The notes under the pieces were generated by a model. It did no database searches. It had not been told where the DNA came from and worked only from the letters and a program-made list of their open reading frames with translations. A program made the position numbers and the translations under genes. Of a stretch of DNA of 64,000 bases, positions 8,602 to 52,827 are shown piece after piece. Every line of letters begins with the position of its first letter. The first letter of the stretch is position 1. This DNA comes from Gammaproteobacteria bacterium (GTDB lineage: Bacteria > Pseudomonadota > Gammaproteobacteria > GRL18): positions 1 through 64,000 of the forward strand of contig JADGEM010000012.1 in NCBI GenBank assembly GCA_016744375.1. The letters are read 5' to 3'.

Positions 8602-10752
8602 TTAGTTTTTGGCCTGCTCTATTTCAGCTATTGCCTGCTTATTTTCATGTTTTACTAGCGGCAACATGGCATTCGTCAACCCCACCATTTTTGAACTGAA
8701 ATAGACAAGCATACTGCCAACGAGCCCCATATTGAAGAGAAACACACCCACCAGAGTAATTGCACCAGGTATTATTGAGGTTAAATAATTGGTACGCATA
8801 TTAGCTTCAAAAAATTTGGAAATTTCGAATAAGGGTTTTAATTTCTTTAAATCACCATCCATCAAAATAATCTGGGCGGTATCAGTGGCGACACTTGAAG
8901 CACCGCGTAGCGAGATGGATACATTGGCCTGTTTTAGGGCGATGGCATCGTTAATTCCATCACCGACATAAGCAACAAATTTTCCATCTTCACGTAGCTT
9001 GGCAATCAGCTCTGCTTTTTTATCAGGCAGTGTTTCAGAAAAATAATGTTCTATGCCTAATTCATTGGCAAGTTGGCGAGTCGGTTGCTCGTGATCGCCT
9101 GAAATAATGATGACTGAAATGCCCTGGGCTTTTACATATTTGATAATTTCTTTGGCTTCTGGGCGAACACAAGGTTGTAATTCCAACATTCCGGCTAGTG
9201 TTCCATCGACAGCAACATACACAAGCGAATGTCCCCTGGCGTCAGATTCAGTTTTTAAGCTCTGAATCTGATCTGAAAAATGTATATCCTGTTGTTCCAT
9301 ATACTTCGCACTGCCTACCTGTACAAGCTTTGTGTCAATTTTGACTTCAATACCATATCCAACCTTGTATGCAGTTTCTTTAATGTTGGGCAAATCCATC
9401 CCACGTTGTTCTGCAGCAGTGAGTATAGCCTTGGCAATGGGATGGGTTTGTCGATATTCAGCTGCCGCAGCGTAAGATAACAGAGTTGCTTCATCAAAAG
9501 GTTCAAGTGGATGAAGATGGCTAAGCTGTGGTTGCTCCATGGTCAATGTGCCGGTTTTATCAAAAACCAGGGTGTCCACTTTTTGCAACATTTCCAGTGA
9601 GCGGCCATCCTTTATCAATATGCCATTTGCGGCCATAATATGTAAAAAGTTCAATACACTGATCGGCCCGTACAGCTTCATATTGTAACCAAAAGCAGTC
9701 CAGATAATAGCCATTGCCGCACTTGGACCAAGCAAGGGCAAGGTTAAGCCACTAACAACCAGGGTTGGCGCAATAAAATCATCCGCTATCTGTTTTCCTC
9801 GTAAGCGCAGACTTTCTTTATACTCCTGTGTTTTTTCCAGGATGAGTCCAATTTTTGCTGCATTGGTATCGGAACCAGTCTGTTCTACTTCAATTAGAAT
9901 TCGCCCGCCTAATATCAGGGTAGAGGCAAAAACCTTTCCTCCAACTTCTTTCTCTATCGATTTTGATTCGCCTGTCAGACCATGCTGGTCAATACTTGCC
10001 AATCCCTCGATTATCACGCCATCAACCGGAATAGTCTCACCTGCATTGACTACTAATATATCCTGTTTTTTTATCGCCGCCAAAGGTATCTCAACTTCAG
10101 AACCTTCTTTTACCACCCATACAGATTGTTGCTTTTGACTAAAACTATTAATTAATTGTTTATGTGAATGCTGTTCGGTTCGAGTCAGCAGTTTCTGGCA
10201 CAACAAACTTGTAAAAGTGATGAAAATAGCCAAAAAGAAAAATCCTGATGCTAGAAGACTAATCACAGAAATAATTTCAATAAGTTCGGTGGTTATATGC
10301 CCTTTCTTCAAATTTTGAAATAATTTTTTAAATACAGGAGTAAAAATATAGAGCGTGGCAACGCCAGCTATGGGCAACAAAGGAGCATAGAACCAGGTGC
10401 CTATCAGGGATAGACCCATTAAGCCTATCGATCCTTTAATGCTATTGTTCAGTTTTCTTTCAGAAGCAGCAGCAGAGGCATCCAACTGATGAGGTTCATC
10501 CCCGATAGACATCTGTTTAATGTGTTGATCACGCAACTCACCACCACTCGTGGAAATCTTAATTACTTCTTTAGCCGCAAGTAGGCCCGTTTTGGTTTTT
10601 TGATAGAGACTGGATAACCTGATTTTCTGTTTGGGTTTAGAAGGCTGGCTTTTGTTTAATGTGTCATTTATAAGTTGGCGATTTTGAAGATATCGGGTAC
10701 TTCTTGTGCCAAAAACCACACCGCCGCCGAATAACAATATTTGAGTTAGCAT
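8602..10752 (-). CDS. P1B-like P-type ATPase lacking the CPx metal site
   Basis: 716 residues. One N-terminal membrane anchor (residues 1-18) and a basic linker precede the ATPase core. The catalytic parts are intact: actuator motif LTGESKS, phosphorylated Asp398 in DKTGTLT, THP (the P1B HP motif) and GDGIND. The transport helix before the phosphorylation site reads AFGYNMKLYGPIS where metal pumps have CPC or SPC, and the usual NDAPAL after GDGIND is NDAIAL. There is no HMA or His-rich metal-binding domain. It is therefore derived from heavy-metal pumps but probably does not carry a soft metal through that site. It leads an operon with the Na/phosphate transporter. Paralogues: 14154-16280, 43119-45149 and 50767-52827. 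Confidence 0.85.
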   Translation of the reverse strand: MLTQILLFGGGVVFGTRSTRYLQNRQLINDTLNKSQPSKPKQKIRLSSLYQKTKTGLLAAKEVIKISTSGGELRDQHIKQMSIGDEPHQLDASAAASERKLNNSIKGSIGLMGLSLIGTWFYAPLLPIAGVATLYIFTPVFKKLFQNLKKGHITTELIEIISVISLLASGFFFLAIFITFTSLLCQKLLTRTEQHSHKQLINSFSQKQQSVWVVKEGSEVEIPLAAIKKQDILVVNAGETIPVDGVIIEGLASIDQHGLTGESKSIEKEVGGKVFASTLILGGRILIEVEQTGSDTNAAKIGLILEKTQEYKESLRLRGKQIADDFIAPTLVVSGLTLPLLGPSAAMAIIWTAFGYNMKLYGPISVLNFLHIMAANGILIKDGRSLEMLQKVDTLVFDKTGTLTMEQPQLSHLHPLEPFDEATLLSYAAAAEYRQTHPIAKAILTAAEQRGMDLPNIKETAYKVGYGIEVKIDTKLVQVGSAKYMEQQDIHFSDQIQSLKTESDARGHSLVYVAVDGTLAGMLELQPCVRPEAKEIIKYVKAQGISVIIISGDHEQPTRQLANELGIEHYFSETLPDKKAELIAKLREDGKFVAYVGDGINDAIALKQANVSISLRGASSVATDTAQIILMDGDLKKLKPLFEISKFFEANMRTNYLTSIIPGAITLVGVFLFNMGLVGSMLVYFSSKMVGLTNAMLPLVKHENKQAIAEIEQAKN

Positions 10753-10893
10753 TACAGGAAATCCGGAGTAAAAGGGGATACTCTACAGCCATAACCATCG
10801 TGATATTGGGTTAAACAAATATTATCATCTTTTTTTTCCATGGTTCGACCTTTATCATGATGGTCCCATATAATAAAACATGAAGGCTGTTAA

Positions 10894-11767: not shown

Positions 11768-11915
11768 TGAGTACAGTCTATCTCTATAATCATATATAGT
11801 TTAGTTTTATTGATTTCTTTTTTATTAATTTAGATTAATGAGAATATCTTTATCACTTGTTATATTTATTAATACTTTTATTTTAATAGGAAGTGCTGAT
11901 GATTCCCTTTATTGT
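11768..11915 (+). repeat. Leader copy B, promoter region of the DoxX fusion gene
   Basis: Second copy of the leader described at 10894-11035. It carries CATATATAG (11791-11799), TTTAGATTAATGAGAA, TATCACTTGTTATATT and the ribosome site AGGAAG, and runs into the first codons of the gene at 11899. A similar TATATAG-TAGATTA block also precedes the small gene at 18300, which suggests a shared promoter or operator type. Confidence 0.55.
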
Positions 11916-13032
11916 TCTTGCGCCTCTGGCTATAGCCGGGGGAGGACTGTTCGGACTGGCGGAGGAGCACTTTCGTCGCAAACGTCTGGCCACGCAACCC
12001 TCTTCCCAACCAACCCCAGACTCACCCCATTCCGATACCGAAGAACAGGACGCACCGGTCATGGCCAGTGGCGAACCTATCCAAATAAAGCGCTCAGCGC
12101 TTGCTGCACGTACCGCTCTGGGTCTGTCGGCAGCAGGAATATGGTATCCCCCGCTGATGCTCGTCTCTGTGCCGGTTATTGGCTACAGCGCATACAACTG
12201 GCTACGCACCCGGTATCTATTCGAGAAACCTTTACACAAATCGCCCTTGAGGATCCTGGCAAGCCTTGCGCTATTAGGCTCCTTGGCAACAGGAAACTGG
12301 TTGATGGCATCACTGGTATTAAGTGTCGACTTGTCAGGACGAAAATGGATATCCAAGTGGACCGAGGGTTCACATTTAATTGATAATGATACCGGAAAAG
12401 AAGTCATTCCTTCCGGTTTTATGTCACGAATTAAATATCTAATACGAGTGATGCTGAAGGGAGAGCCTCGCTGGGAATGGTTTCCAGCTCTGTTGGCACG
12501 AGTATCGATGGGACTGTTCTTTGCAATTTCCGGCTGGAACAAGCTATTCATGGTTTCGCATTGGAAAGGCCTGTTAGCTGCAATGATTGCGACAGGCTTA
12601 CCCTTTCCAAAATTAATGTCTCTTGTTCTAGCCTGGCTCGAACTTGCCGGCGGTGCCCTTCTTACCATCGGTTTCATGTCAACATTCTTTTCCATTGCGC
12701 TGGCATTTGCAATGATCGTAGCCATTGTAACAGTTGAGATCCCCTTCGTAATTCCGCCAGGACTCGGTCCTCTCGACTGGCTGGATTGGTTCTTATATTT
12801 ACCTCAGGTCTTATATGTTCTCATTTTCTTATGGCTAATCATCAAAGGCCCTGGTCCTTACAGTGCCGATGCTGTTATTGCGCGCAAACTTGGGTTTGAC
12901 AAGGACTCCGAAGAAGATCCCAATATGGATTCTGAAAAGAGCACCCCGCAAGACCCTGAGACTGATTCCGAGAAAAGTCCCGATAAGGAATCCGGCCTCG
13001 GAGGAGGCAGTTGGACTCCACAGTACACTTAA
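11899..13032 (+). CDS. DoxX-family membrane protein with a P-type ATPase-like N-terminal half
   Basis: 377 residues. The first ~130 look like the N-terminus of the ATPases in this window: a membrane anchor (MIPFIVLAPLAIAGG), a basic then acidic linker, and a helix pair (ALGLSAAGIWYPPLMLVSVP, then SAYNWLRTRYLFEK) followed by two more helices. No actuator or phosphorylation domain follows. Instead residues ~192-310 are a DoxX-type four-helix unit (FPALLARVSMGLFFAISGWNK), the fold of thiosulfate:quinone oxidoreductase small subunits and related redox membrane proteins. The tail is acidic with DSEKSP-like repeats. The ATG at 11899 follows AGGAAG. The truncated ATPase at 56057-56824 starts in the same way. 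Confidence 0.7.
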   Translation: MIPFIVLAPLAIAGGGLFGLAEEHFRRKRLATQPSSQPTPDSPHSDTEEQDAPVMASGEPIQIKRSALAARTALGLSAAGIWYPPLMLVSVPVIGYSAYNWLRTRYLFEKPLHKSPLRILASLALLGSLATGNWLMASLVLSVDLSGRKWISKWTEGSHLIDNDTGKEVIPSGFMSRIKYLIRVMLKGEPRWEWFPALLARVSMGLFFAISGWNKLFMVSHWKGLLAAMIATGLPFPKLMSLVLAWLELAGGALLTIGFMSTFFSIALAFAMIVAIVTVEIPFVIPPGLGPLDWLDWFLYLPQVLYVLIFLWLIIKGPGPYSADAVIARKLGFDKDSEEDPNMDSEKSTPQDPETDSEKSPDKESGLGGGSWTPQYT

Positions 13033-14153: not shown

Positions 14154-16280
14154 CTACTTATGAATGTATATATACTTAATAAGTTTTTTGACTGTCGACT
14201 TATCTTCTTCTTCAGCTTCATTTTCTATATGCTCAAGTTTGCTTTTTTCATCAGTTTTTTTATCTACTTTGTCACTTATTTCAGTATAGGGCAGCATTCC
14301 ATTTGCAGCAGCAATCAGGTTGAAGCCATTATTCAAAACCAGTGAAGCTTTTAGTCCAAAAAATCCCATAAAGGCGCCGACAATACAAACTGTGTTCGGA
14401 ATTGCAATCATCAGAAAGCTTCTTTTTACATTGGTTTGCAGATTGGCAGCAACCTCAAACAGATAATGAAATTTGGTAAGCGTACCGTCCATGAAGATCA
14501 CATCAGCAACATCAACTGCGATGGTTGATGCGCCTTTTAAAGAGACACCAATTTCAGCATGAGAAAGGGCAGCAGAATCATTAATTCCATCGCCAACCAT
14601 CATTACTTTTTTGCCTTCATCCTGCAGTAATTTCACATAATCGGCTTTTTCATTAGGCAGTACTCCGGCAAAATAGCGATCAATATTGAGCTGACGCGCA
14701 AGCTCTTTGGTAGGTGCTTCACTATCACCTGAAATAACAACAATTTCTTTAATACCTAAGCGCCTTAAATCAGCTATGACATCAGCAGCTTCTTCTCTCA
14801 CTGTGGATTGCAGTTCAATCATGCCCGCTACTTTGTTATTGATCGCTGTCAATATCGCTGATTGCCCACGTTCATCGGCCTCTTTTAAAGCGGCTTTAAT
14901 TTTTTCTGGAAACTCGATATTCTCATTTTCCATATAGCGGGCACTGCCCACTTTGATCCAGTCCTGACCAATTTCTACTTCAATACCTAAACCAACATGA
15001 TATTGGGACTCATCATATTCTGCTAATTCTATATTTTCATCCCTGGCTTTCTGCAAAATAGCAGCAGCAATTGGGTGAGAAAATTTTTGTTCGGCTGTAG
15101 CTGTGCAAAACAGGATTTTTTCTTCACTATACGTTTCATCCGCCGTTACAATTCTAGAGACAGTAGGCACTTCTTTGGTCAAAGTACCCGTTTTATCAAA
15201 TAGTACAACATCAATATCTTTTAGTTTTTCGACGACTTCACTATGTTTAATCAGGATGCCATTTTTTGCGGCGTTACCCAATGAAGCCAGTAATGCGATG
15301 GGAGCTGCTATCCGGATACCAGTACCGTAATCAGCATTTATTATGGCAAGTAACGCACCTGGCCCGACCATTGCGTAACCCAGAGCTCCCATACCCATGG
15401 TAGGTATAACCATTTTATCGGCTATTTTTTCACCGACGGACTGTAACTTGACATCATAATTGGAAGCTTCATTGATAATTGATATAACTTGAGATGCCAA
15501 GGTATTCTCACCCGTTTCCTGCACTTTAACCTTGATCTTTCCGGCAACTATCACAGTAGTAGCAAAAACCTGTTCATTCTCATGTTTATCTGCCGGGACA
15601 GATTCACCAGTGAGACTTTGCTGATCAATCATAGCCCCACCTTCAATGATAATCCCGTCTACGGGTACTTGTTCGCCTGTACCAACAATGACAATATCAT
15701 TTTGTTTCAAGTCCTTTACTTCGATTTGGACTTCTGTACCATCAACGAGCAACCAGGCAAAACGAGGCTGTTCACCAAATATGTCGGTTATATAGTTACG
15801 TGATTTCTTGGTGGTTTTTTGTAGCAACATATCTGCAAGATCAATAATCCAGACCATAAATGCCGCCGCAGCAATTTGCCCAAAGAGTAGGGTCAGCAAA
15901 ATCACCCCAGTATCAAGCATATCAACTTTGATTTTCTTTTCTTTGAATAGAGCATTTGTCGCTTCTTGAAAAATATTGAACGAAAAATAACCAATTAATA
16001 GACAGGTGACAGGCATAAGCCAGACCAAACTGGTTTGGGCTAATACAGCAATACCCATGGTTCCTGTAGTCATAAGAAAACGATATTTATGTCGTTCTTC
16101 ATTAGCTTCAATGTCTTCAATAGCTAATTCGGTCTGTGTTTCATGCAATGTATTCGTACTTGATGAACCAGCTATTTTTTTAATCTCTCGTTTACTTTTA
16201 GCTTTAGTCAGCACTTTTTTTACATAAGGCGCAGCAGTTGCACCAACAAAAACCAGTATCATTCCACCAATTTGAATCAT
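14154..16280 (-). CDS. P1B-like P-type ATPase lacking the CPx metal site
   Basis: 708 residues with the same plan as the other CPx-less paralogues: an N-terminal anchor (MIQIGGMILVFVGATAAPYV), a basic linker, then the ATPase core. LTGESVPADK, Asp362 of DKTGTLT, SHP and GDGIND are all present. The transport-helix motif is ADYGTGIRIAAPIAL instead of CPC, and the segment after GDGIND is NDSAAL. The C-terminus adds a highly charged tail (DKVDKKTDEKSKLEHIENEA). AAGGAC precedes the ATG. The gene follows a dicarboxylate-type symporter by 72 bases on the same strand, so the two are probably co-transcribed. The substrate is unknown; loss of the metal ligands argues against a classical Cu or Zn pump. 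Confidence 0.85.
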   Translation of the reverse strand: MIQIGGMILVFVGATAAPYVKKVLTKAKSKREIKKIAGSSSTNTLHETQTELAIEDIEANEERHKYRFLMTTGTMGIAVLAQTSLVWLMPVTCLLIGYFSFNIFQEATNALFKEKKIKVDMLDTGVILLTLLFGQIAAAAFMVWIIDLADMLLQKTTKKSRNYITDIFGEQPRFAWLLVDGTEVQIEVKDLKQNDIVIVGTGEQVPVDGIIIEGGAMIDQQSLTGESVPADKHENEQVFATTVIVAGKIKVKVQETGENTLASQVISIINEASNYDVKLQSVGEKIADKMVIPTMGMGALGYAMVGPGALLAIINADYGTGIRIAAPIALLASLGNAAKNGILIKHSEVVEKLKDIDVVLFDKTGTLTKEVPTVSRIVTADETYSEEKILFCTATAEQKFSHPIAAAILQKARDENIELAEYDESQYHVGLGIEVEIGQDWIKVGSARYMENENIEFPEKIKAALKEADERGQSAILTAINNKVAGMIELQSTVREEAADVIADLRRLGIKEIVVISGDSEAPTKELARQLNIDRYFAGVLPNEKADYVKLLQDEGKKVMMVGDGINDSAALSHAEIGVSLKGASTIAVDVADVIFMDGTLTKFHYLFEVAANLQTNVKRSFLMIAIPNTVCIVGAFMGFFGLKASLVLNNGFNLIAAANGMLPYTEISDKVDKKTDEKSKLEHIENEAEEEDKSTVKKLIKYIYIHK

Positions 16281-16352: not shown

Positions 16353-17567
16353 TTAATATCGCTTGTTAAGAATAATGGCGCATAAACACTCATCAGTGGA
16401 ATTAGCCCCAGTTCGAAATGAATCCGGCAATCCAATCTGAAGGCCAATATACAAACTCAAATAGACGGGCATTAACTCAGGAGATACTCCCATGGAAAGC
16501 GCCATTGGGCCAGCAAAAAGTATTAATTCACCAGGCATACCAGGCACTCCATAACCAATTAAAAAAACAATGGGTATACTAAGTAGCAATTGAATGAGTG
16601 ATATATCAACATTTAATATCGCTGCTACAAGCCCGGTCATAATAAACACATTGACTATTGTGCCATTAATATTAAGAAATGAACCAGTGCCGATGACAAA
16701 TTGGCGAACTTCATCAGGGATAGTCGGACAAAATTTCTTCACCATGTTCAGATTTAGCGGCGTTGCTAACGCTTCTGAAGAGGTTGCCCAAAGCATGGGG
16801 TACACTTTTATCCAATAAACAGAAAAGTATTCTTTCAGAGAAAAATCTGGTTTTGCACGTTTAACTAAAAAGATTAAGCCAAGATGCCAGATAGCAGAAA
16901 CAAACCCGGTTAGTAAGGCTCCCAGGACATAAAGAAAAAGCATGCCCAATGATGATGCAATATCGATACTGAAACCAAATATTGATACAGTATTAGCCCT
17001 GATATTGGCGGCATCAGGCCCTAGACTTTTTTCAAGAATCTCTGGCAAAATAGTGACATATGCACCCACTGCAATCATCATGAAAGGGATAATCGGTATT
17101 ATAAATTGGCCTAAAAATTCAATCAGTTCAACACCTTTTCCTAAAGTATTTGCTGCCTTGGTAAATCTTAATGCAACAGCTGTTGTAATAATGGACGCAT
17201 AAATAGCATAAAAATACTCACTATGAGTCAACATGTATCCAAGGGAAGTCACAGATTCTTTTAGGGCATCTTTAAATCCGTCAAGTGATGAATACACTGG
17301 TATATCAAAAGCAATGACTGTCCAGATTACACCATATACACAAGCAATAAGCCTGGCGACTGCATACCATTTAATAGTATGCTTGGCAAAACTTTTCCCC
17401 CGCGTTTCGCTTATCATAAGCTTAATAAGAGTAGGGGTCAGAATCAAATAAATTGCTACAGGAGCAAAATAGCTATAGCCATCTATAAGGCCTTCCATTG
17501 CATCACTTACTAAATAGGCAAATGCTGGAGATTGATCAGCCCAGAATGTTCCTGTTAATAAGGACAC
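16353..17567 (-). CDS. Dicarboxylate/amino acid:cation symporter (DAACS family)
   Basis: About 404 residues with the family's re-entrant loop region (GTGSFLNINGTIVNVFIMTGLVA and the matching first half) and eight or so membrane segments. Relatives import C4-dicarboxylates or acidic amino acids with Na+ or H+. The usual signature residues are altered in places (SSEALATPLNLNMVKK), so substrate choice is uncertain. The start is unclear: the first standard codon is GTG at 17567 with no ribosome site, yet the frame stays open for 18 further codons to about 17621 and encodes a plausible start of the first helix after GGGGTGA, with only ATT or CTG codons available. It is followed by the ATPase at 14154-16280. 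Confidence 0.75.
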   Translation of the reverse strand: MSLLTGTFWADQSPAFAYLVSDAMEGLIDGYSYFAPVAIYLILTPTLIKLMISETRGKSFAKHTIKWYAVARLIACVYGVIWTVIAFDIPVYSSLDGFKDALKESVTSLGYMLTHSEYFYAIYASIITTAVALRFTKAANTLGKGVELIEFLGQFIIPIIPFMMIAVGAYVTILPEILEKSLGPDAANIRANTVSIFGFSIDIASSLGMLFLYVLGALLTGFVSAIWHLGLIFLVKRAKPDFSLKEYFSVYWIKVYPMLWATSSEALATPLNLNMVKKFCPTIPDEVRQFVIGTGSFLNINGTIVNVFIMTGLVAAILNVDISLIQLLLSIPIVFLIGYGVPGMPGELILFAGPMALSMGVSPELMPVYLSLYIGLQIGLPDSFRTGANSTDECLCAIILNKRY

Positions 17568-22081: not shown

Positions 22082-22094
22082 AGGATAAAATGTC

Positions 22095-23150: not shown

Positions 23151-23268
23151 TGACTGGCTTAAATAAAGTGGCCGGATTCCGGCCATAGGGTAAAATACGA
23201 TATAACATGTTGATTTATATATAAAAATAACAAATAAAAAATTTTAAAAAAATCAAAAATTAATATAA

Positions 23269-23288
23269 AATGTTCTACGTAGAACATT
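23269..23288. promoter_or_regulatory. parS: parS-like 20-base perfect palindrome
   Basis: The core TGTTCTACGTAGAACA (23271-23286) matches the chromosomal parS consensus TGTTTCACGTGAAACA at 12 of 16 positions, and the four differences are symmetric. With one more base pair on each side it is a perfect palindrome in a very AT-rich stretch, 40 bases before the second ParB gene. A ParB binding site and/or operator is the natural reading. Confidence 0.65.
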
Positions 23289-23327
23289 GAGAAACATAAA
23301 TAACGAAAAATAAAGGGATTTTAAATC

Positions 23328-33684: not shown

Positions 33685-33709
33685 AATATTTACCTGGGTT
33701 CCGAACTGA

Positions 33710-41995: not shown

Positions 41996-42904
41996 ATGAT
42001 GTCAGGCAATCACCAGATAAAAAATTATAATCGGGCATTTGCCTTTGGTATTTTGCTAAACGTCACGTTCGTAATTATCGAAGCAAGCTATGGTGTCATT
42101 TCTGGATCTTTGGCCCTGATAGCAGATGCTGGACACAATTTAAGTGATGTCTTAGGCTTGTTGCTTGCGTGGGGTGCTATCTGGCTGGCCTCAAAAAAAG
42201 CAACAGAGAAAAGAACCTATGGTTTTCGCAAGGGAACGGTATTAGCATCCTTGGGCAGTGCGCTATTACTGCTTTTTTCACTTGCTATCATTACATGGGA
42301 AGCAATTGGCCGGTTTTCTGATCCACAGCCAGTTCAGGGAATGACGATTATTGTTGTTGCTGCCATTGGTGTAGTGATTAACACCATCACCGCGCTATTA
42401 TTCAGATCAGGACAGAAGGATGATCTGAATATCAAGGGGGCATACCTTCACATGGCCGCAGATGCAGGTGTTTCCCTGGGTGTGGTTGTCGCGGGGATCC
42501 TTGTTATGCAGACAGGCTGGTCGTTGGTTGACCCTGTTACCAGCTTAATTATCGTTGTTATTATTTTTATTGGGGGCTGGTCTTTGCTCAGAGATTCTAT
42601 CAATCTGGCGCTGGACTCTGTTCCTGAAGGTATTGATATGCCTGGAATAAGAAACTATTTAAGCGAGATTGAACACGTCATCCAAATACATGATCTGCAT
42701 GTCTGGCCCATTAGCACAACGGAAGTCGCACTGACGGTTCATTTAATACTGGATAATGACAACAAGCCGCAGAAAAATTTCCTGTCACAAATCCAACAGC
42801 AGCTCCATGATGTTTTTGACATTGAACATTCAACAATACAGATCGAAACACAGAATGATGAAAGCTGCATGCTAGATCCTCAGGAGACGACTGTCAAAGA
42901 ATAG
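41996..42904 (+). CDS. Cation diffusion facilitator (CzcD/ZitB-type) efflux protein
   Basis: 302 residues from the ATG at 41996, preceded by AGGAG; the frame to 41969 lacks a site. Six helices and the two family metal-site motifs are present: ADAGHNLSDVLG in helix II and HMAADAGVSLGVV in helix V (HxxxD pattern). The C-terminal cytoplasmic domain has IHDLHVWPISTTEVALTVHL, typical of Zn exporters. It moves Zn2+ (or Co2+/Cd2+) out in exchange for protons. Divergent from the fusion ATPase and ZIP, it completes a small metal-balance set. A CPx-less ATPase gene follows 214 bases downstream on the same strand. Confidence 0.88.
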   Translation: MMSGNHQIKNYNRAFAFGILLNVTFVIIEASYGVISGSLALIADAGHNLSDVLGLLLAWGAIWLASKKATEKRTYGFRKGTVLASLGSALLLLFSLAIITWEAIGRFSDPQPVQGMTIIVVAAIGVVINTITALLFRSGQKDDLNIKGAYLHMAADAGVSLGVVVAGILVMQTGWSLVDPVTSLIIVVIIFIGGWSLLRDSINLALDSVPEGIDMPGIRNYLSEIEHVIQIHDLHVWPISTTEVALTVHLILDNDNKPQKNFLSQIQQQLHDVFDIEHSTIQIETQNDESCMLDPQETTVKE

Positions 42905-43118: not shown

Positions 43119-45149
43119 ATGTTATTTAGAATTGGCGTTCTTTTGGCTACTTTCATTGGAGTGAAAATTTATGATAAATATACCAACAATCGGGGTGATT
43201 CAAAAAAGAAAGAAAAACTTGCTGTAAAATCCCAGAAGTCATTAGCCCGGATGACTAACATCGGTGAATCAAAAAAATTGTGTGATCATTATTTTAAGGT
43301 GAGCACGATTTCTTTAGGTCTTGCAGTTTTGACAGGATCCTTCCCATTACTCTATATTGTAAGCCTCGGAGCCATTCTTTACTCCTGTATCCCCATTTTG
43401 AAACGCGGTCTAAGACAACTGTTGGAAAGGCGCACCATCGGGCATGATGTGCTTTATAGTATTTACATTATCCTGGCTTTTCTGACCCATCAGGAAATAT
43501 TTATCGCATTGGGCGTCTTTTTTTATCATTCTGGTGCAAAAATGCTGGCCATGAACCAAGCCATGTCCAAGCCTATGATAAGCAATCTTGTCAAACAGTT
43601 ACCTGATAAAATATGGGTTTTAAAAGATGGTATTGAAATTGAAACACCGCTTGACGAGGTCATGATCAGTGATACTGTTGTTATCAGGGCTGGAGAAATT
43701 ATTTCAGTCGATGGCACTATTACTGAAGGCATCGCAATGATAGACCAGCATGCTCTGACTGGCGAGTCGCAAGCGGTGGAAAAAGAAAGCGGTGCTCAGG
43801 TATTCTCTTCAACACTTATAGTCAGCGGCCAGATCCATGTAAAAGTAACAAAGGCCGGTAGTGATACAAACATTTCAAAAATCACTGAAATTCTTAATAA
43901 TACCTCGGCTTATACATCATCTATTCAATTAAAAGGAGAGAAATGGGCAAATATTATTGCCATGCCTATTGTTGCACTGACGATGTTGGCAATTCCAACC
44001 CGGGGACTTATGACCGCCACTACGGTTGTGCATAGTACTTTTGGCAACCGCCTGAGAATCGTTGCTCCTCTTGGAACCCTGAACTATATCCATTCCGCCT
44101 TAAATAAAGGCATACTAATCAAAGATGGACGAGTTATTGAGGAATTAGGCAGAGTAGACACGGTGTTGTTCGATAAAACCGGAACCTTAACTCATGACCA
44201 GCTTGAGGTTGGCAAAATTATCAGCAGTAGTGATCAATACAGCAGCAATGAAATTTTAACCTATGCCGCTACGGCTGAACACAAACTCACCCATCCACTG
44301 GCTCAGGCCATTCTCAAGAAAGCTGAAGAATCCGGCCTCGTGTTACCCTCTATTGAGGATTCCAGTTTTACCATGGGTTATGGGATTTCGGTCACTATTA
44401 ATAATCAGCTTATTCGTGTCGGCAGTGCCCGTTTTATGGAAATGGAGAATATTGTTATTCCCCAGCTTATACAGGCTGCCATAGAGCAATCCCATCTTGA
44501 AGGGCACTCAGTAGTTCTTGTTGCTGTCAATGCTGATATTGCTGGCGCGATTCAACTCGTGTCTACGCTTCGTCCAGAGGTCAAGGCCGTATTGAGTGGA
44601 TTGCGCAAACGCGGCATTAAACATATATCGATTGTCTCTGGCGATCATAAAATCCCAACCCAGAAGTTAGCGGAGTCTCTGGGTATAGACAGTTATTTTT
44701 ATGAAGTCCTGCCTCAGCAAAAAGCTGATATCGTCAGGCAATTACAACAACAGGGCAAAAAAGTCTGTTTTGTTGGCGATGGCATCAATGATGCCATCGC
44801 GATGAACACCGCCAATGTATCTGTCTCTTTGAGTGGTGCCACGTCTATTGCCACGGATACGGCGCAGGCCATTTTAATGGATGGCAGCTTAACCCATTTA
44901 TGTGATTTATTTGATATTTCACACAAGCTGAAAAATAATTTATGGCGCAGTCTGGTGCTTATTACTATACCTACCGTCGTTAGTTTAGGTGGTGCACTTT
45001 TCATGGGCTTAAGATTGGGCGGCTCTTTTCTTATTATTTATTCTAGTTTTACCTTAGCCTTGTTCAATGCCATGCTGCCGATTCTTGAATATAAAGGTGT
45101 AAAAAAATCTAAAAAAATCAATCATATAGAGTCAGCCCAAAGAAAGTAG
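43119..45149 (+). CDS. P1B-like P-type ATPase lacking the CPx metal site
   Basis: 676 residues from the ATG at 43119, preceded by GGAGG; the TTG at 43113 is rejected. A single N-terminal anchor (MLFRIGVLLATFIGVKIY) and a lysine-rich linker come first. Preserved are LTGESQAVEKE, Asp352 of DKTGTLT, THP and GDGIND. The transport-helix motif is HSTFGNRLRIVAPLG in place of CPC, and NDAIAM replaces NDAPAL. It is closest in feel to the member at 8602-10752. It follows the CDF gene in the same direction, but with a 214-base gap containing its own AT-rich TATACTATACT promoter near 43002-43012. Confidence 0.85.
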   Translation: MLFRIGVLLATFIGVKIYDKYTNNRGDSKKKEKLAVKSQKSLARMTNIGESKKLCDHYFKVSTISLGLAVLTGSFPLLYIVSLGAILYSCIPILKRGLRQLLERRTIGHDVLYSIYIILAFLTHQEIFIALGVFFYHSGAKMLAMNQAMSKPMISNLVKQLPDKIWVLKDGIEIETPLDEVMISDTVVIRAGEIISVDGTITEGIAMIDQHALTGESQAVEKESGAQVFSSTLIVSGQIHVKVTKAGSDTNISKITEILNNTSAYTSSIQLKGEKWANIIAMPIVALTMLAIPTRGLMTATTVVHSTFGNRLRIVAPLGTLNYIHSALNKGILIKDGRVIEELGRVDTVLFDKTGTLTHDQLEVGKIISSSDQYSSNEILTYAATAEHKLTHPLAQAILKKAEESGLVLPSIEDSSFTMGYGISVTINNQLIRVGSARFMEMENIVIPQLIQAAIEQSHLEGHSVVLVAVNADIAGAIQLVSTLRPEVKAVLSGLRKRGIKHISIVSGDHKIPTQKLAESLGIDSYFYEVLPQQKADIVRQLQQQGKKVCFVGDGINDAIAMNTANVSVSLSGATSIATDTAQAILMDGSLTHLCDLFDISHKLKNNLWRSLVLITIPTVVSLGGALFMGLRLGGSFLIIYSSFTLALFNAMLPILEYKGVKKSKKINHIESAQRK

Positions 45150-45442: not shown

Positions 45443-46381
45443 ATGCAAGATTTTGTTTTAGATGGGATGATTATGACGGATGTTAGCAATGAGTATGACA
45501 ATACCGCAGGAGACCACCAGCAATTGAATGATGGAGTTGCTCCAGACAGAAAGGTGGAAAAAGATCCCGAAATCGGGCTGCCTGAGAATCGGGTTATCCG
45601 CAAAAGGCTTGCTGCCAGAACCATTGCCATTCACCTGAGTGCTTTACCGCCTGAACTGCAGGCATTGAAAGATATCAATGATACTACCGACAATGCTTAC
45701 CTGACCAAACAAGATCTGCCTGATGAAATTCATTTGACTTCCCCTTCAGGGGAAGTCAAGGTGCTGTCAAGGGATGAAGCCTGGGAATTCGCTGATGAGG
45801 CTGGTTCACAACTGGAATGGCATATGCTTCCTGACACCATGCCAGGCAAGGCTGCCGCATTATTTTCCACGACCGGTCAAGGGGTATATGCCAATTATGG
45901 TCGCCCAACCATGGATTTTTCCGGTTTCTTCTATGACTCCATCCGCGCCTCTCGAAAAGTCCCGAGAGGCGCCATTGCTCCCCAAGAGAGTATCTTACTG
46001 GGGCCGTTATTTATTACTGTGGATGCTATCAGTGCTGCGGGTTTCACGGCACTTGGCCACATTACACGAGATGCTTCACTAACGAATAAAACCGTGCTTA
46101 CTGATATTGTCTCCACCGGTATATATGAAGGAAGTGCATCCTGGACATCAGCCAGACTCGGTGTCTTTACCGGAGCCAGGGCAATACGTCTTGCCGCTGC
46201 ACTACCCATCCCTGGTGCCCATCTTGCGGCAATTCCAGTCGGCTTCCTGGCGGGTGCTGTTACCGCTATTTTTGCCAAGCGTTTTGCCAATCAGTATAAG
46301 GATAAGGCCATTGATGCCACCTATCGGTCTGGAAAACGTGCCAGAACTTCTGGGGTGTCCCGGGAGGTTATTCCAGTATAA
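45443..46381 (+). CDS. Hypothetical protein with membrane-associated C-terminus
   Basis: 312 residues; AGGAAAC lies just before the ATG. The first half is soluble and acidic, with a middle region containing DEIHLTSPSGEVKVLSRDEA and a long linker. The second half has amphipathic or weakly hydrophobic helices (ESILLGPLFITVDAISAAGF, then ALPIPGAHLAAIPVGFLAGA). The ALPIPGAHLAAIP stretch resembles the IPIPGAD pattern of DUF697 proteins but the rest does not align by eye. The stop codon overlaps the end of egtD, which is convergent, by 14 bases. No function is assigned. Confidence 0.6.
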   Translation: MQDFVLDGMIMTDVSNEYDNTAGDHQQLNDGVAPDRKVEKDPEIGLPENRVIRKRLAARTIAIHLSALPPELQALKDINDTTDNAYLTKQDLPDEIHLTSPSGEVKVLSRDEAWEFADEAGSQLEWHMLPDTMPGKAAALFSTTGQGVYANYGRPTMDFSGFFYDSIRASRKVPRGAIAPQESILLGPLFITVDAISAAGFTALGHITRDASLTNKTVLTDIVSTGIYEGSASWTSARLGVFTGARAIRLAAALPIPGAHLAAIPVGFLAGAVTAIFAKRFANQYKDKAIDATYRSGKRARTSGVSREVIPV

Positions 46382-47387
46382 TCGTTTGCACGCGAAACAA
46401 ATGGATACTAAATAAATTGTCTGCATCGACCCATAGTGCAACGGATTGAAAGCCCGCTTCTTGTGCCAGTTTTATAAATTCCTGCGTGCTGTATTTATAG
46501 GAATTTTCGCTATGGATTGTCTCACCCTTGGTGAATTCAAATCTGCTTTGTCCGATGCTAACCTGTTGCTCTCGTAAACTGACCAGATGCATCTCGATAC
46601 GCCCAGCCTGTTCATTATAAATTGCTTTATGCTGCCAGCCCGAAAGATCAAAATCGGCATCCAGTTCGTAGTTAATGCGTTGCAGCAGATTGAGGTTAAA
46701 CTGTGCCGTAATGCCGAGGGCATCGTTATAGGCGGCGCGCAGGATGCTCTTGTCCTTTTTCAGATCAACACCGATTAACAGGTAGCCCTCCGACTTCACC
46801 AACTGCGCAATTGAGGTCAGAAATTCCACAGCGCCTCTGGGATCAAAGTTACCGATGCTCGAACCTGGGAAAAAAGCCACCCTTGTACCCTCTGCTTTCT
46901 CTAGAGCAGTTGGCGGTAATGCCATGCTTTGAGTAAAATCTGTGCAGGTAGCATGGATCTCCAGCCAGGGAAAGACAGTGGCCAGTTCTTCTGTCGCCAG
47001 TTGCAGGTGCTGACTGGAGATATCCATTGGTACATAAGCCATCGGTCTCAGGCCTTCCAGCAGTATATGCACCTTGGCGCAACTGCCGCCGCCAGGTTCA
47101 ATCAACAGGCTATCTGTGCCCACATGGTGAGCAATCTCATCTGCGTTATTCTGTAAAATAGCTATTTCGGTACGGGTTTGATAATACTCGGGCAGTTCGG
47201 TAATGGCATCAAATAGTTGTGAGCCTTTGGCATCGTAAAAATATTTTGGTGGGATGGAGGCGGGTCGTTTATCCAGGCCCTGCAACACATCGCTGGCGAA
47301 CTCGCTGGTCGTTGAATGCAGGTCATGAAACCAGAGTTTATTATTATTCAAAGGGCTTCTTGTGTTTATTGGTGACTGCGTAAGCAA
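46368..47387 (-). CDS. egtD: L-histidine N-alpha-methyltransferase EgtD
   Basis: About 339 residues. The family hallmarks are clear: KYFYDAKGSQLFDAITELPEYY near the start, the SAM-binding IEPGGGSCAKVHILLEG, MDISSQHL, FFPGSSIGNF, LIGVDLKKDKSIL and the closing KYSTQEFIKLAQEAGF. EgtD trimethylates histidine to hercynine, the substrate of EgtB, so ergothioneine synthesis is encoded (EgtB at 32315 and 33710; EgtE candidates at 29178 and 30671). It lies 11 kb from the egtB pair. The start is uncertain: only TTG at 47387 is in frame upstream of the conserved region, with no good ribosome site. Its 3' end overlaps the convergent gene at 45443. Confidence 0.85.
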   Translation of the reverse strand: MLTQSPINTRSPLNNNKLWFHDLHSTTSEFASDVLQGLDKRPASIPPKYFYDAKGSQLFDAITELPEYYQTRTEIAILQNNADEIAHHVGTDSLLIEPGGGSCAKVHILLEGLRPMAYVPMDISSQHLQLATEELATVFPWLEIHATCTDFTQSMALPPTALEKAEGTRVAFFPGSSIGNFDPRGAVEFLTSIAQLVKSEGYLLIGVDLKKDKSILRAAYNDALGITAQFNLNLLQRINYELDADFDLSGWQHKAIYNEQAGRIEMHLVSLREQQVSIGQSRFEFTKGETIHSENSYKYSTQEFIKLAQEAGFQSVALWVDADNLFSIHLFRVQTIILE

Positions 47388-47762: not shown

Positions 47763-48233
47763 ATGAAGAAACCCCCATCAAAACAGGCTCTGTCAGGACA
47801 GGCAAACAAACTCATAAAAAAATACGCTTTTGGCTCCGGTTTATTCGGCTATATCCCTTTTCCTGTAGTGGATGCTCTTGGCATTATGGCTGTTCAGCGC
47901 AAGATGTTATTTCATCTTGCGAGGATCTATGACATACCGTTCTCACGCAGTCTGGCAAAAGACCTGTTAAGAATACTGGCAGGAGGTATTGCCTCACGAG
48001 CAGCTGTTCCCATGGCAATAAAAATAATTCCCGGAATCAATGTCTTGTTTGGCAGTACTGGCATGGCTGCAATAGGTAGCGCTTCAACCTATGCGGTTGG
48101 AAAAACCTTTAAGCGACACTTTGACGAAGGTGGAACCCTGGAGGATTTTAACCCTGTTGAGGAAAAAGAAATCTTTGAGGAAGAACTAAAAAAAGGAATA
48201 ATTTTGTCACAGAAAAAAAGAAAAAAGTCATAA
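47763..48233 (+). CDS. Stand-alone DUF697 protein
   Basis: 156 residues, almost entirely a DUF697 domain: FGYIPFPVVDALGIMAVQRK, then a helical pair, then IIPGINVLFGSTGMAAIGSA, and ending in RHFDEGGTLEDFNPVEEKE with a basic tail. The HFxxGGTLEDFNP ending is shared with the protein at 56841-57431 and closely with the N-terminal domain of the ATPase fusion at 38742-41510. DUF697 occurs at the C-terminus of some GTPases (YcjF-like) and alone; it is probably membrane-embedded. No clear ribosome site precedes the ATG, so start confidence is lower. Confidence 0.75.
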   Translation: MKKPPSKQALSGQANKLIKKYAFGSGLFGYIPFPVVDALGIMAVQRKMLFHLARIYDIPFSRSLAKDLLRILAGGIASRAAVPMAIKIIPGINVLFGSTGMAAIGSASTYAVGKTFKRHFDEGGTLEDFNPVEEKEIFEEELKKGIILSQKKRKKS

Positions 48234-48852: not shown

Positions 48853-49377
48853 ATGACAGCTACAGATATACCAACAACACTAGATGGTACCTTGGAGAAT
48901 GTGAAACACAAGTATCGGATGACACGAGCCAATAAACTTGTCAGAAACCATTGTGTGCTGAGTGCTGCTATGGGGGTGGTACCCATACCACCATTAACTA
49001 TGGCCCTTATTCTAGCCAATAATCTAAAAATGCTACACAAGTTATCTTCTATCTATGGTGTTAAATTCAGAAAAGATGCTGGAAAAGCGGCTATTAGTAG
49101 TTTTTTAGGGGGTTGCGGAACCGTCTCTATTTCAGGCAGACTGATCTGGGGGCTTAGTACGGCACTTCCCGTGGCAGCACCTGTAATCAGCATTGTGACT
49201 GTACCTTTATTTGGAGCTGCAACAACCTATGCGATAGGACACTTGTTTATTCAGCATTTTGAATCAGGTGGTACCTTCCTGACCTTCGATCCTGAGAAAG
49301 TCAGGGGGCATTATGCAGAGCTGTTCGCTGAAGGTGAGAAACTTGCAGAAGGCGAGGAGGAACTTGCCAAAGCATGA
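48853..49377 (+). CDS. Stand-alone DUF697 protein
   Basis: 174 residues. AAGGAG precedes the ATG by 6 bases. After a charged N-terminus the domain shows AAMGVVPIPPLTMALILANN, a glycine-rich helix pair (SSFLGGCGTVSISGRLIWGL) and QHFESGGTFLTFDPEKVRGH, with an acidic C-terminal helix. It shares the HFESGG ending with the fusion ATPase N-terminus. It lies upstream of the sulfotransferase and the ATPase at 50767 on the same strand. Confidence 0.75.
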   Translation: MTATDIPTTLDGTLENVKHKYRMTRANKLVRNHCVLSAAMGVVPIPPLTMALILANNLKMLHKLSSIYGVKFRKDAGKAAISSFLGGCGTVSISGRLIWGLSTALPVAAPVISIVTVPLFGAATTYAIGHLFIQHFESGGTFLTFDPEKVRGHYAELFAEGEKLAEGEEELAKA

Positions 49378-49572: not shown

Positions 49573-50670
49573 ATGAAAATGAAAGTAGAAAACCTTGAAC
49601 AGTCTGTACCTGAACTCTTTCAGGTTGCTAATAAAAAATACCTTCAGCCTGAACAGGCCATTGAAATAATCAAGCAAAATAGCGGAGTTATTCCCGTTGC
49701 CATTACGGCAGAGCACAGAGTCATCTGGATGAATGTGGGGGACTATCCGTATAGAGAGTGGAAGTTTCGCTACGCCACCCAAAACCTGATTGAAAAGCAG
49801 GGATTCGGTGACTGTTTTACGACAGACATTCAAGTGCTGTCCAGTGAGGAGCTTAGTTTGGACACTCTTCAGGATCCGGCTGGCTTTGTCTTTCATATGT
49901 CCAAATGTGGTTCTACCCTGATGTCCAAAGTACTGGATCAGCCCGAAACCCAGATGATTATTAAGGAAGCTACCCCGCTGCATGAAAACCTTTGGCAATA
50001 TCTGACTAATGACTGGCAAGAACCGGTTGCCCCGACAGTAGAAAATCTGCGTCTGATCCGTAACTTGATACAACTACTGGGCAGACCCCGATTACCCAGA
50101 CAGAAATCTTACTACGTCCGCTTTAGAAGCTGGGGTATTGCCTTTGTGGAAATTATCCAGCAGGCATTTCCAGAGACCCCTTCCCTGTTCATGTACCGTG
50201 ATCCTGTGAAAGTCATGGCATCCATTTTGAATAAGCCCACAACAGGGCTGCCCAGGCTAAATGACTCGGATGCTGCGGCCTTTATTACGGGACACTCCAG
50301 GCAGGCACTTAATGAAATGGATACACTGCATTATTTCACTAGTTTCTACAAACAATACCTGCATTTAAGTTTGACTAAAATGAAGAATACCCATTATTTG
50401 AATTACCGACAGATGAATAAGCAAAATATCGACCAGATCTTGCGTATCGGGTATGGCTATGCAGCGGCAGAGGCCGATTTGCCCTCGATGCAGGCGCAGT
50501 TTGATACCTATTCCAAGGATGATACAGGAACCGTTCGTTTTGTTTCGGACAGCAAGGAAAAGCAGAAACAGGTGACACCCCAGATGCGTGAAGCTGCTGA
50601 AGAATATTTGATGGCTATGTATCAGCAACTGGAAGACAGTGATAATAATCTGAATAAAGTCTTATTCTAA
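49573..50670 (+). CDS. Sulfotransferase-family protein
   Basis: 365 residues. HMSKCGSTLMSKVL (about residues 108-121) is the P-loop-like 5'-phosphosulfate-binding motif (family form xxRSGSTLL), and MYRDPVKVMASIL (about 207-219) is the 3'-phosphate-binding motif. The middle contains FRSWGIAFVEIIQQAFPE. These enzymes transfer sulfuryl groups from PAPS to alcohols or amines on small molecules or glycans. The C in place of R in the first motif is seen in several divergent bacterial subfamilies. No strong ribosome site is seen. It stands 97 bases upstream of a CPx-less ATPase in the same direction. Confidence 0.75.
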   Translation: MKMKVENLEQSVPELFQVANKKYLQPEQAIEIIKQNSGVIPVAITAEHRVIWMNVGDYPYREWKFRYATQNLIEKQGFGDCFTTDIQVLSSEELSLDTLQDPAGFVFHMSKCGSTLMSKVLDQPETQMIIKEATPLHENLWQYLTNDWQEPVAPTVENLRLIRNLIQLLGRPRLPRQKSYYVRFRSWGIAFVEIIQQAFPETPSLFMYRDPVKVMASILNKPTTGLPRLNDSDAAAFITGHSRQALNEMDTLHYFTSFYKQYLHLSLTKMKNTHYLNYRQMNKQNIDQILRIGYGYAAAEADLPSMQAQFDTYSKDDTGTVRFVSDSKEKQKQVTPQMREAAEEYLMAMYQQLEDSDNNLNKVLF

Positions 50671-50766: not shown

Positions 50767-52827
50767 ATGATTCTTGAAGTAATCAGTGCCACTACTTTGG
50801 GCACATATCTCTATCGGTATGTGAAAAAAAATAAAAAAACACTCCACAAGGCACGAGCTAGAAAGTCTAAAAAGGAGCGTATTACACCCTTTACAGGCAA
50901 TGTACGTGATCAGCAGATCAAGGAGTTTTCTGCTGGCAACCTAGACAAAAAGAATCCACAACAGAAACTAACCGATCGTAATATGGCGATTTCTGTGGCT
51001 TCTTTGGGCCTGGCAATTACCGGTAAGCTATTTTATTTTCCCATTGCATTACTGAGTTTGCCGGGAATTTTGTACATTACCCATTTTGCGATTATGCAGG
51101 CCTTTAAGGGATTGTTTAAAGAAAAAAAACTGACGGTTGATTTTCTCTCAGCAACGATGAAAGTATTACTGTTGATTAATGGCTACCTGGTTTTTGCCAG
51201 CTTCTCAGTTTTTATGTTCAGCCTGAATCGTAAATTACTCTCTAAAATCACTGATAACTCAAAGAAAAATATTATTGATGTCTTTAAGCAGCAACCCAGT
51301 ACTGTATGGGTGGTTCATGATAATATTGAACGGGAAATACCTTTTGAAGAGCTAAAAACTGGCGATAGGGTGATGGTCAGCGCAGGCAGTACAATTCCTG
51401 TCGATGGTGAGATTATTGAAGGCTCTGCTTCTGTTGATCAGCATATTCTAACCGGTGAATTCCAACCCGTAGAAAAACATACAGGTGATGAGGTGTTTGC
51501 CCTGACGCTGGTGTTGTCTGGAAAAATCTATATTCATGCTCGTGAGACAGGTCAGCAAACATCAGCAGCACAAATTGCCAATATTCTTAATAACACCATT
51601 AGTACTAAAACCGATGTACAGCTGTGGTCCAGAGAAATCAGTGATAAAAGTGTGCTGCCTACTTTTGCAATAAGTGCGGTATCCTTGCCTTTTATAGGTC
51701 CGATTGGTGCCTTGGGTGTATTGAACTCCCACTTTAAATATCGGGCATCCATTGCTTCTGCGATTGGTGTGATGAACTATCTGGATATGGCTTCCCATAA
51801 TGGTATCCTGGTCAAGGATGGACACACCTTTGAGCTGCTGGAAAAAGTCGACACGGTTGTTTTTGACAAGACAGGCACTTTAACGGAAGCTCAACCTCGT
51901 GTAGAGAAAATTCATTTGTGTGGCGAGTACTCCGAACAGGAAGTGCTTCGTTACGCCGCTGCGGCTGAAAGCAAACAAAGCCACCCCATTGCCAAGGCCA
52001 TTATTCAACAGGCAATAGAACAACAATTGGAGTTGCCTGAGATAGAAGAAGCTGCCTACAAGCTGGGTTATGGTCTTACGGTTGGTGTTGAAGGACATGT
52101 TGTGCGTGTTGGCAGTCTGCGTTTTCTAGAGCAGGAAAATATCCATATTCCTGATGATATCCGTACAGCACAAACAGTCTGTCAAGAACAGGGATCTCCT
52201 ATGATTGCGGTTGCTATTGATGATAGTGCCGTGGGAACCATCGAACTGGCAGCTGCTATCCGTCCTGGTACAAAAGAGTTAATCCATGAGTTAACTCATG
52301 AATGCGGTATCAAGTCTACCTACATTATTTCTGGTGATCACGATGCCCCCACTCGTCAATTGGCTGATGAGCTGGGTATTAATCACTATTTTGCCGAAGT
52401 TCTGCCAGAACAAAAAGCAGAACTCATTAAACAGCTTCAGGCAGAAGGCAAATCCGTTTGTTATGTTGGTGACGGCATTAATGATTCTATTGCCTTACAG
52501 GAAGCTGATGTTTCCGTGTCTATCCGTGGTGCATCCACGGTGGCCACAGATGCGGCGCAAATTGTATTAATGGGCAAAACACTTAACCAACTGCCTTATC
52601 TGTTTGGCATGGGCCAACAATTTAATGGCCATATGAAAAAGGTAGTTGCCACCGTAATTACCCCCAGCGTAGTATCCGTCGGTGGATCGATTCTGTTCTT
52701 TAATCTTGGCTTGATACAGTCCTTTATTTTCCCTCAGGTTGGTTTACTGGCTGGTATCGCTGTGGCGATGCGTCCTGTTCTTGGGCATTGTAAAAGGGGT
52801 GAGAAAAAGCGCCTGTCACAAAAATAA
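50767..52827 (+). CDS. P1B-like P-type ATPase lacking the CPx metal site, TGES altered
   Basis: 686 residues, GGAG before the ATG. An N-terminal anchor (MILEVISATTLGTYLYRYV) and a strongly basic linker precede the core. Asp367 of DKTGTLT, SHP and GDGIND are present. The actuator motif reads LTGEFQPVEKH, so the catalytic Glu of TGE stays but the next Ser is Phe. The transport motif is NSHFKYRASIASAIG rather than CPC, and NDSIAL replaces NDAPAL. Closest paralogue by eye: 8602-10752. A decayed copy of its 3' half lies at 55117-55320. It follows the sulfotransferase gene and is followed by debris and the lone molybdoenzyme. Confidence 0.85.
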   Translation: MILEVISATTLGTYLYRYVKKNKKTLHKARARKSKKERITPFTGNVRDQQIKEFSAGNLDKKNPQQKLTDRNMAISVASLGLAITGKLFYFPIALLSLPGILYITHFAIMQAFKGLFKEKKLTVDFLSATMKVLLLINGYLVFASFSVFMFSLNRKLLSKITDNSKKNIIDVFKQQPSTVWVVHDNIEREIPFEELKTGDRVMVSAGSTIPVDGEIIEGSASVDQHILTGEFQPVEKHTGDEVFALTLVLSGKIYIHARETGQQTSAAQIANILNNTISTKTDVQLWSREISDKSVLPTFAISAVSLPFIGPIGALGVLNSHFKYRASIASAIGVMNYLDMASHNGILVKDGHTFELLEKVDTVVFDKTGTLTEAQPRVEKIHLCGEYSEQEVLRYAAAAESKQSHPIAKAIIQQAIEQQLELPEIEEAAYKLGYGLTVGVEGHVVRVGSLRFLEQENIHIPDDIRTAQTVCQEQGSPMIAVAIDDSAVGTIELAAAIRPGTKELIHELTHECGIKSTYIISGDHDAPTRQLADELGINHYFAEVLPEQKAELIKQLQAEGKSVCYVGDGINDSIALQEADVSVSIRGASTVATDAAQIVLMGKTLNQLPYLFGMGQQFNGHMKKVVATVITPSVVSVGGSILFFNLGLIQSFIFPQVGLLAGIAVAMRPVLGHCKRGEKKRLSQK

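Follow-up and report, generated by a model that had tools for sequence, protein, structure and literature searches.

Four CPx-less ATPases in the window

The window analysed here, the first 64,000 nucleotides of contig JADGEM010000012.1 from the Gammaproteobacteria bacterium assembly GCA_016744375.1, carries four genes encoding P-type ATPases of P1B descent that have lost the CPx motif of transmembrane segment M4. A preliminary description of this DNA had proposed that the four form a distinct, functioning clade with a different cargo or a regulatory role. All four reading frames are open over the following positions:

8602 to 10752, reverse strand: CPx-less P1B-derived ATPase, group A, with M4 motif FGYNMKLYGP
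14154 to 16280, reverse strand: CPx-less ATPase, group B, with M4 motif YGTGIRIAAP
43119 to 45149, forward strand: CPx-less ATPase, group C, with M4 motif FGNRLRIVAP and an alternative TTG start at 43113
50767 to 52827, forward strand: CPx-less ATPase, group D, with M4 motif FKYRASIAS and TGEF

The motifs DKTGTLT, HP and GDGIND are present in all four proteins, and the translations display the M4 replacements YNMKLYGP, YGTGIRIAAP, FGNRLRIVAP and FKYRASIAS, respectively, as initially described; the NDAPAL segment is likewise altered, to NDAIAL, NDSAAL, NDAIAM and NDSIAL. Group D presents TGEF in place of TGES, with the Glu retained. Pfam assigns E1-E2 ATPase and HAD hydrolase domains to the four proteins and finds no HMA domain in any of them, in agreement with the earlier account. 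A basic linker follows the N-terminal hydrophobic stretch in all four, while the single membrane anchor attributed to that stretch is clear in groups B and C and marginal on the Kyte-Doolittle scale in groups A (1.22) and D (0.85). Judging from their intact catalytic motifs, the four P1B-type ATPases are predicted to be catalytically competent. They score 404, 443, 388 and 393 bits on the NCBIfam heavy-metal ATPase model TIGR01525 (cut-off 346), and routine annotation would therefore label them metal pumps.

The CPC of an ordinary P1B ATPase encoded at 38742-41510 aligns to FGY, YGT, FGN and FKY in the four proteins. An AlphaFold2 model of the group A ATPase, built from a 73-sequence alignment, has a mean predicted local distance difference test score (pLDDT) of 78.7 and places M3 at residues 309-341 and M4 at residues 358-375, with a predicted helix break at 351-357 that overlaps the start of the replacement motif (354-363). 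Alignment error was considered as a source of the apparent CPx loss and rejected as unlikely in view of the modelled M4 break at the motif and the consistent 73-member alignment. In a Foldseek search the top matches of the model were Cu and Zn ATPases, the best PDB entries being 4bbj, 4umw and 7r0g.

Extent, phylogeny and selection of the family

The four copies in the window are part of a larger set of eight in the genome. The window's contig has five of them, the fifth lying at contig positions 64042-66042, beyond the window end, and a second contig has the remaining three. Four further P1B ATPases of the genome comprise three with CPC and one with an SCA motif (contig C110). When the eight copies were used as queries (E 1e-150), matches were obtained in 7 of the 24 genomes of the organism's own order and in none of the other 17; six of the positive genomes display 5-10 matches each and the seventh a single copy. 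The family was also found in 9 of the 369 genomes of a class sample and in four metagenome-assembled genomes (MAGs), three with the label Thioploca or Thiotrichaceae and one with the label Acidobacteriia; each of the four MAGs has 5-9 matches, which span most of the model and in a few cases contain stops.

The family alignment comprises 73 of 77 distinct members; the four omitted, which cross the borders of fetched pieces, have the M4 motifs of their groups. No member has a Cys at either CPx cysteine column (0/73). HP and TGE are invariant (73/73 each), DKTGTLT is found in 72 members and DKTSTLT in one, and GDG(I/V/L)ND is present in 71, with one GDGITD and one GNGLND. Within M4-M6 as a whole, 31 members contain no Cys, 39 contain one and three contain two.

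The first tree comprises 105 proteins, and its 76 family rows (a DKTGT filter dropped a member from genome G016) constitute one side of a branch with a Shimodaira-Hasegawa-like approximate likelihood ratio test (SH-aLRT) support of 100, set apart from CPC pumps, from the SCA-motif rows that we take to be P1B-6, and from a group of cyanobacterial CPx-less pumps. A second tree of 71 rows, which includes 17 further members and retained mainly one genome of the own order, also holds the family together (57/57); both trees were computed by a quick method without bootstrap. The CPC ATPase at 38742-41510 falls outside the family clade. The distinct clade anticipated in the preliminary description is thus found at the level of the family. 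Within it the four window proteins do not group with one another; each belongs to a different one of the roughly ten orthologous groups recognised in the own order, all of them kept across species, and group B branches first in the midpoint-rooted drawing.

Orthologues in other species keep each replacement motif, and pairwise ratios of non-synonymous to synonymous substitution (dN/dS), mostly measured against the own genome, are 0.06-0.17 in seven orthologous groups, although in group G dS reaches 1.8-2.7, near saturation. Both observations argue strongly against decay. That the genes are decaying duplicates under relaxed selection is hardly credible and largely refuted, since M4 is also 95% identical within groups; pseudogenes are ruled out by the dN/dS values. 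What could be cited for decay is that a group A gene of one own-order genome (G008, L136:179-2528) is split into two overlapping reading frames, which account for two of its ten matches, and that a few matches in the Thioploca-labelled MAGs are fragmentary or contain stops.

Conservation in the membrane domain follows a particular pattern. Identity in M4 is 95.4% within orthologous groups, the highest of eleven regions compared, and falls to 29.8% between groups, against 53-56% for the P domain. A Lys or Arg is located five residues past the first CPx position in 53 of the 73 members, and acidic residues are absent from the M4-M6 columns with at least 90% conservation. Such conservation is consistent with pumps whose binding sites differ from one another and are each maintained. 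The suggestion of a different cargo is accordingly favoured by M4-M6 regions kept within groups and divergent between them, and by the biosynthetic neighbours described below, with the cargo itself remaining putative; the regulatory role suggested as the alternative is conceivable too.

The family members could instead be metal pumps with a new ligand set, in which backbone groups, Asn, Tyr or His residues, or a metallophore-like complex of metal and chelator made by neighbouring genes, replace the CPx cysteines. The predicted fold is closest to Cu and Zn pumps, a CDF transporter and a CPC ATPase are among the window neighbours, many neighbouring enzymes could make chelators, and the accessible part of one report places a heavy-metal P-type ATPase inside a cyanobacterial metallophore cluster (PMC12210259). 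Against this, the CPx columns hold no Cys in any of the 73 members and no single metal-ligand residue common to the family, the residues there differing from group to group, and the four window ATPases lack HMA domains. We regard such metal transport as unlikely, though worth keeping in view.

Comparison with known pumps supports a separate position. The family shares its fold, HP, DKTGT, TGE and M-domain layout with P1B-1 and P1B-2 ATPases (CopA, ZntA), and differs from them in the absence of CPC/SPC from M4, in the altered NDAPAL segment, in its separate clade and, for the four window proteins, in the missing HMA domain and the additional N-terminal hydrophobic stretch and basic linker. P1B-6 pumps likewise have a basic Lys or Arg in M4 (SCALKLATP, compared with FGYNMKLYGP in group A); the family, however, lacks the SC residues, does not match SC(A/G)(I/L)(K/R)L and occupies a separate branch. 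A second CPx-less P1B group, comprising cyanobacteria and one Chloroflexi MAG (L025, L030, L167, L028), displays TGIRVSVP, TGIRVSMP and SGIRVAAP, which resemble TGIRIAAP of group B, yet it forms its own branch with one or two copies in the three genomes searched; its Crocosphaera member presumably has an HMA-like N-terminus, as judged by eye. A precedent for organic cargo among P-type ATPases is provided by the P5B polyamine ATPases (ATP13A2), which are named in the description of TIGR01657. The window ATPases belong to a different subfamily, scoring 88-103 bits on that model against a cut-off of 618. The accessible part of PMC9374683 likens the DUF6110 proteins encoded alongside P1B-6 pumps to PacL platform proteins; Pfam matched neither DUF1490 nor DUF6110 in the four window ATPases, and PacL-type metal platforms were rejected on the missing DUF1490 match. 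In the accessible portions of PMC10654040 and PMC7558416, P1B ATPases are described as metal exporters and the P1B-7 substrate as unknown, while that of PMC3573892 concerns mycobacterial pumps. A literature search, mostly without subscription journals, found no description of the CPx-less family.

Gene neighbours of the family

Part of the family ATPases adjoin biosynthetic genes. Operon-like runs contain nonribosomal peptide synthetase (NRPS) modules at four loci (L149, L206, L212, L220), an aromatic amino-acid lyase with an AMP-binding/carrier-protein enzyme (L197), EgtD-type methyltransferases (L131, L196), a radical SAM/SPASM protein (L218) and methyltransferases (L154, L132, L021). At L155 a TauD dioxygenase and an enolase-superfamily enzyme lie between two family genes, O-methyltransferases are among the neighbours outside the own order, and in the own genome (L019) saccharopine-dehydrogenase-like and decarboxylase genes adjoin a family ATPase. 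These assignments rest on Pfam searches of 50 hand-chosen neighbours, 10 from the own order, 30 from outside it and 10 added later (five of them beside the actin described below rather than an ATPase); among the first 40, eight had no match and some others were regulators or ordinary enzymes.

The association with NRPS genes was quantified over 53 family genes, excluding the six core genomes of the own order and including G016. A condensation domain lies within 20 kb of 13 of them, where 1.79 would be expected from coverage, and none of 20,000 simulations gave a count as high; at 5 kb the count is 7 (0.68 expected) and at 10 kb it is 9 (1.08 expected). By comparison, the count within 20 kb is zero for 34 control P-type ATPases taken from these genomes (Fisher p 0.0008). 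The controls are the places of other P-type ATPases, one row per gene and without G061-G063; two of the 34 are family-like (G055:C356, a half-ATPase, and G206:C189). Duplicate condensation-domain pieces and many G016 rows were omitted, none of which shares a contig with a family gene. For the EgtD type, 18 genomes gave 11 strong PF10017 matches, nine of which have a family ATPase no more than 2 kb away; five of these nine represent one own-order arrangement, and both distant matches belong to the acidobacterial MAG. When mapped onto the second tree, with its 57 family rows, the NRPS label (12 rows) requires nine changes and the EgtD label (5 rows) five, and thus these links were not inherited once but arose repeatedly.

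The window and the second contig are part of a block whose gene content is largely common to G000, G005, G007, G008 and G021, while 12 genomes of the same genus lack these ATPases. The island comprises three DUF697 proteins, an SPFH protein, an EgtB/EgtD-like set, a half-ATPase and a DoxX fusion, the latter two treated in the next section. Other features of the window include:

6756 to 8558, reverse strand: Na/Pi cotransporter, encoded 43 bp downstream of the group A gene
16353 to 17567: gene upstream of the group B ATPase, with a Pfam SDF match
29178 to 30446, reverse strand: class-V aminotransferase-like enzyme; a relative in G008 (L140) follows a family ATPase gene after 23 bp
32315 to 33631, forward strand: EgtB-like protein (FGE-sulfatase and DinB_2)
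33710 to 35047, reverse strand: EgtB-like protein (FGE-sulfatase and DinB_2)
38742 to 41510, reverse strand: ordinary CPC P1B ATPase outside the family, with a DUF697-like N-terminus and a His-rich linker
41969 to 42904, forward strand: CDF cation transporter, upstream of the group C ATPase
46368 to 47387, reverse strand: EgtD-type methyltransferase (Methyltransf_33)
47763 to 48233, forward strand: DUF697 membrane protein by Pfam, found in 6 genomes
48853 to 49377, forward strand: DUF697 membrane protein by Pfam; a relative with 38% identity is encoded close to the MamK-like actin of G268 (L230)
49573 to 50670, forward strand: gene without Pfam match, 96 bp upstream of the group D ATPase
56841 to 57431, reverse strand: DUF697 membrane protein by Pfam, next to the half-ATPase
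58807 to 59805, reverse strand: SPFH/Band 7 protein, with relatives near family ATPases in L133 and L203

The two proteins at 32315-33631 and 33710-35047 are taken to be EgtB on the strength of their FGE-sulfatase and DinB_2 domains. Together, the region 29178-35047 and the gene at 46368-47387 encode two EgtB-like proteins, two class-V aminotransferase-like enzymes and one EgtD-type protein, a set that reads as a predicted ergothioneine-like or related betaine pathway. The EgtD-type gene is located about 1.2 kb from the group C ATPase in five genomes of the own order, and relatives of the 49573-50670 gene stand beside group D in all five genomes where group D was read. The N-terminus of the CPC ATPase scores 26.4 bits for DUF697, under the cut-off of 27.7. 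A 187-aa protein encoded at 55392-55955 is 51% identical to a relative in the acidobacterial MAG (L204:12195-12752), where two family ATPases lie nearby. KfrA-, ParA- and two ParB-like genes (160-1239 and 20894-24116) lie among the island genes, presumably as on a plasmid or chromid. A defence system was considered and rejected, as ten island proteins gave no PADLOC match at E 1e-5.

Some of these neighbours raise the possibility that the ATPases pump inorganic ions, whether alkali, alkaline-earth or linked to protons or phosphate, into mineral or vacuole-like inclusions. The Na/Pi cotransporter in the group A operon, a Na/Ca exchanger family gene in the window with a 50% identical relative near the G165 family copy, and over-cut-off MamK in two family-positive genomes are in keeping with this proposal. 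It is nevertheless quite improbable, as it leaves the NRPS and EgtD links unexplained and as the conserved M4-M6 columns lack acidic residues. The calcite bodies of Achromatium were considered in view of the Na/Ca exchanger gene and retained only within this alternative, the family being absent from 17 of the 24 own-order genomes; the accessible parts of two papers (PMC4806510, PMC11773610) mention no such gene set.

The associated actin, the half-ATPases and the possible role of the family

Three further features concern the membrane module and the actin:

11893 to 13032, forward strand: DoxX (Pfam) fused to a family-type N-terminal membrane module, found in 5 genomes
55982 to 56824, forward strand: half-ATPase of 280 aa with the membrane part MA-M2 and part of the A domain, and no P or N domain
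67218 to 68303 of contig C61 (L017:7218-8303), 3.2 kb past the window end: MamK-like actin

The actin gene is separated from the fifth ATPase by one small gene. Its product resembles the magnetosome actin MamK, scoring 383.6 bits on the NCBIfam model NF040964 and having as best PDB matches 5ljw and 5jyg, which we take to be MamK structures. It differs from MamK in falling below the cut-off of 400 and in forming a clade of its own, in which relatives are 57-96% identical to it, compared with 36-41% for eleven other MamK-family proteins, MamK proteins over the cut-off included. In the class sample the clade occurs in 5 of 9 family-positive and in none of 360 family-negative genomes (Fisher p 2e-9); the family and MamK counts, each over 369 class genomes and agreeing in the listed handles, were taken as one sample. 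Nine of the ten MamK-positive, family-negative genomes are outside the clade, and the tenth, G149, was not placed (220 bits, against 378-385 for the clade). Since G000 and G007 belong to one genus, the five clade-positive genomes represent four families of bacteria. Members were also found in G005, G008, G019, G021 and G057, and in none of four family-negative genomes of the own genus tested. The MamK-like actin gene of G145 adjoins genes for an NRPS and a phosphopantetheinyl transferase; that of G268 is no more than 10 kb from a condensation domain and has a DUF697 relative and a further phosphopantetheinyl transferase as neighbours. Family-positive G357 and G145 (L233, L234) carry MamK over the cut-off, with CDF-like genes around it, seen by eye in L233, and look like magnetotactic bacteria.

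The half-ATPase displays TGF where the family has TGE and is found in five genomes of the own order, where the proteins, of 256-280 aa, all stop at one position inside the A domain and carry TGF, TGY or NGF for TGE. Similar proteins occur in two Thioploca-labelled MAGs (G057 and G058; 268 and 273 aa, with TGI and TQD) and in G055 (266 aa, with AGN), giving four lineages in all, and one Thioploca-labelled MAG encodes a 43% identical relative of the DUF697 protein 56841-57431 one gene away from its half-ATPase. Values of dN/dS are 0.11-0.24 in three of four pairs, and in the fourth the genes are identical. Purifying selection and the convergent gene that starts 16 bases past its stop make the half-ATPase unlike a remnant. 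The identical pair (G000 and G005; dN = dS = 0), in which the family ATPases differ by dS of at least 0.23, suggests recent exchange. Alignment to the family N-terminus by hhalign gave probabilities of 96.8 for the half-ATPase and 97.3 for the DoxX fusion; a structure model of the half-ATPase was uninformative (pLDDT 35).

These features could indicate membrane-organising ATPases, whose cycle would drive lipid movement, scaffolding or the assembly of a compartment with the MamK-like actin, solute transport being secondary or absent. The N-terminal membrane module common to half-ATPase and DoxX fusion, the recurrence of TGE-less half-ATPases in four lineages, the strong co-occurrence with the actin and the DUF697 and SPFH neighbours would all be accommodated. 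Group-specific conservation of M4-M6 and product-specific operons point instead to distinct solutes, and the family is present in genomes without the actin; we consider this explanation doubtful.

The reading we favour, tentatively and as possible rather than probable, is that the CPx-less ATPases are working primary pumps that move organic solutes derived from amino acids, with every paralogue dedicated to a pathway of its own. A separate P1B-derived family would have abandoned the CPx route of handling transition metals; its usual phosphorylation cycle would move small betaine-, peptide- or polyamine-like compounds out of the cytoplasm, each paralogue having its own M4-M6 pocket and working with adjacent biosynthetic genes. 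Because the same cells, in several lineages, also carry the MamK-like actin, DUF697 membrane proteins and TGE-less half-ATPases, the target membrane may be that of an intracellular compartment. At the level of sequence, the clade, the intact catalytic motifs, the loss of metal ligands, purifying selection and the gene association are supported, whereas activity, transport, the nature of the cargo and the compartment are what we infer from them.

Several observations weigh against this proposal. Within the own order, G016 aside, condensation domains and family genes never occur on one contig (0 of 48 matches): G000, G007 and G021 lack such domains, and those of G005, G008 and G019 are on other contigs. 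Of the 53 family genes in the quantified set, 40 lack a condensation domain inside the 20 kb range, and the 13 with one include three same-contig pairs, leaving about ten independent places. Several own-order neighbours are ordinary transporters or redox enzymes, and the inorganic-ion transporters (Na/Pi, CDF) adjoining own-genome copies would fit inorganic cargo too. The actin clade is missing from four of the nine family-positive genomes of the class sample, and the actin is absent by score from family-positive G016, G058, G059 and G060; the actin-less G206, G058, G059 and G060 hold four to six family genes, although G058 also lacks an MreB match and the absence there may reflect incompleteness.

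A broader form of the proposal, improbable as a whole, holds that the family provides dedicated pumps for amino-acid-derived specialised metabolites in scattered bacteria, with one paralogue per pathway loading a compartment organised by its own MamK-like actin and the half-ATPases acting as non-catalytic subunits. The NRPS/EgtD neighbourhood, the distinct MamK-like actin clade and the conserved half-ATPases are new; the actin and half-ATPases that accompany the family suggest a bacterial membrane system for which no description was found. A conserved, multi-copy family without the metal site suggests that the P1B scaffold has been re-used for other cargo, and its gene neighbours turn candidate substrates into directly testable ones.

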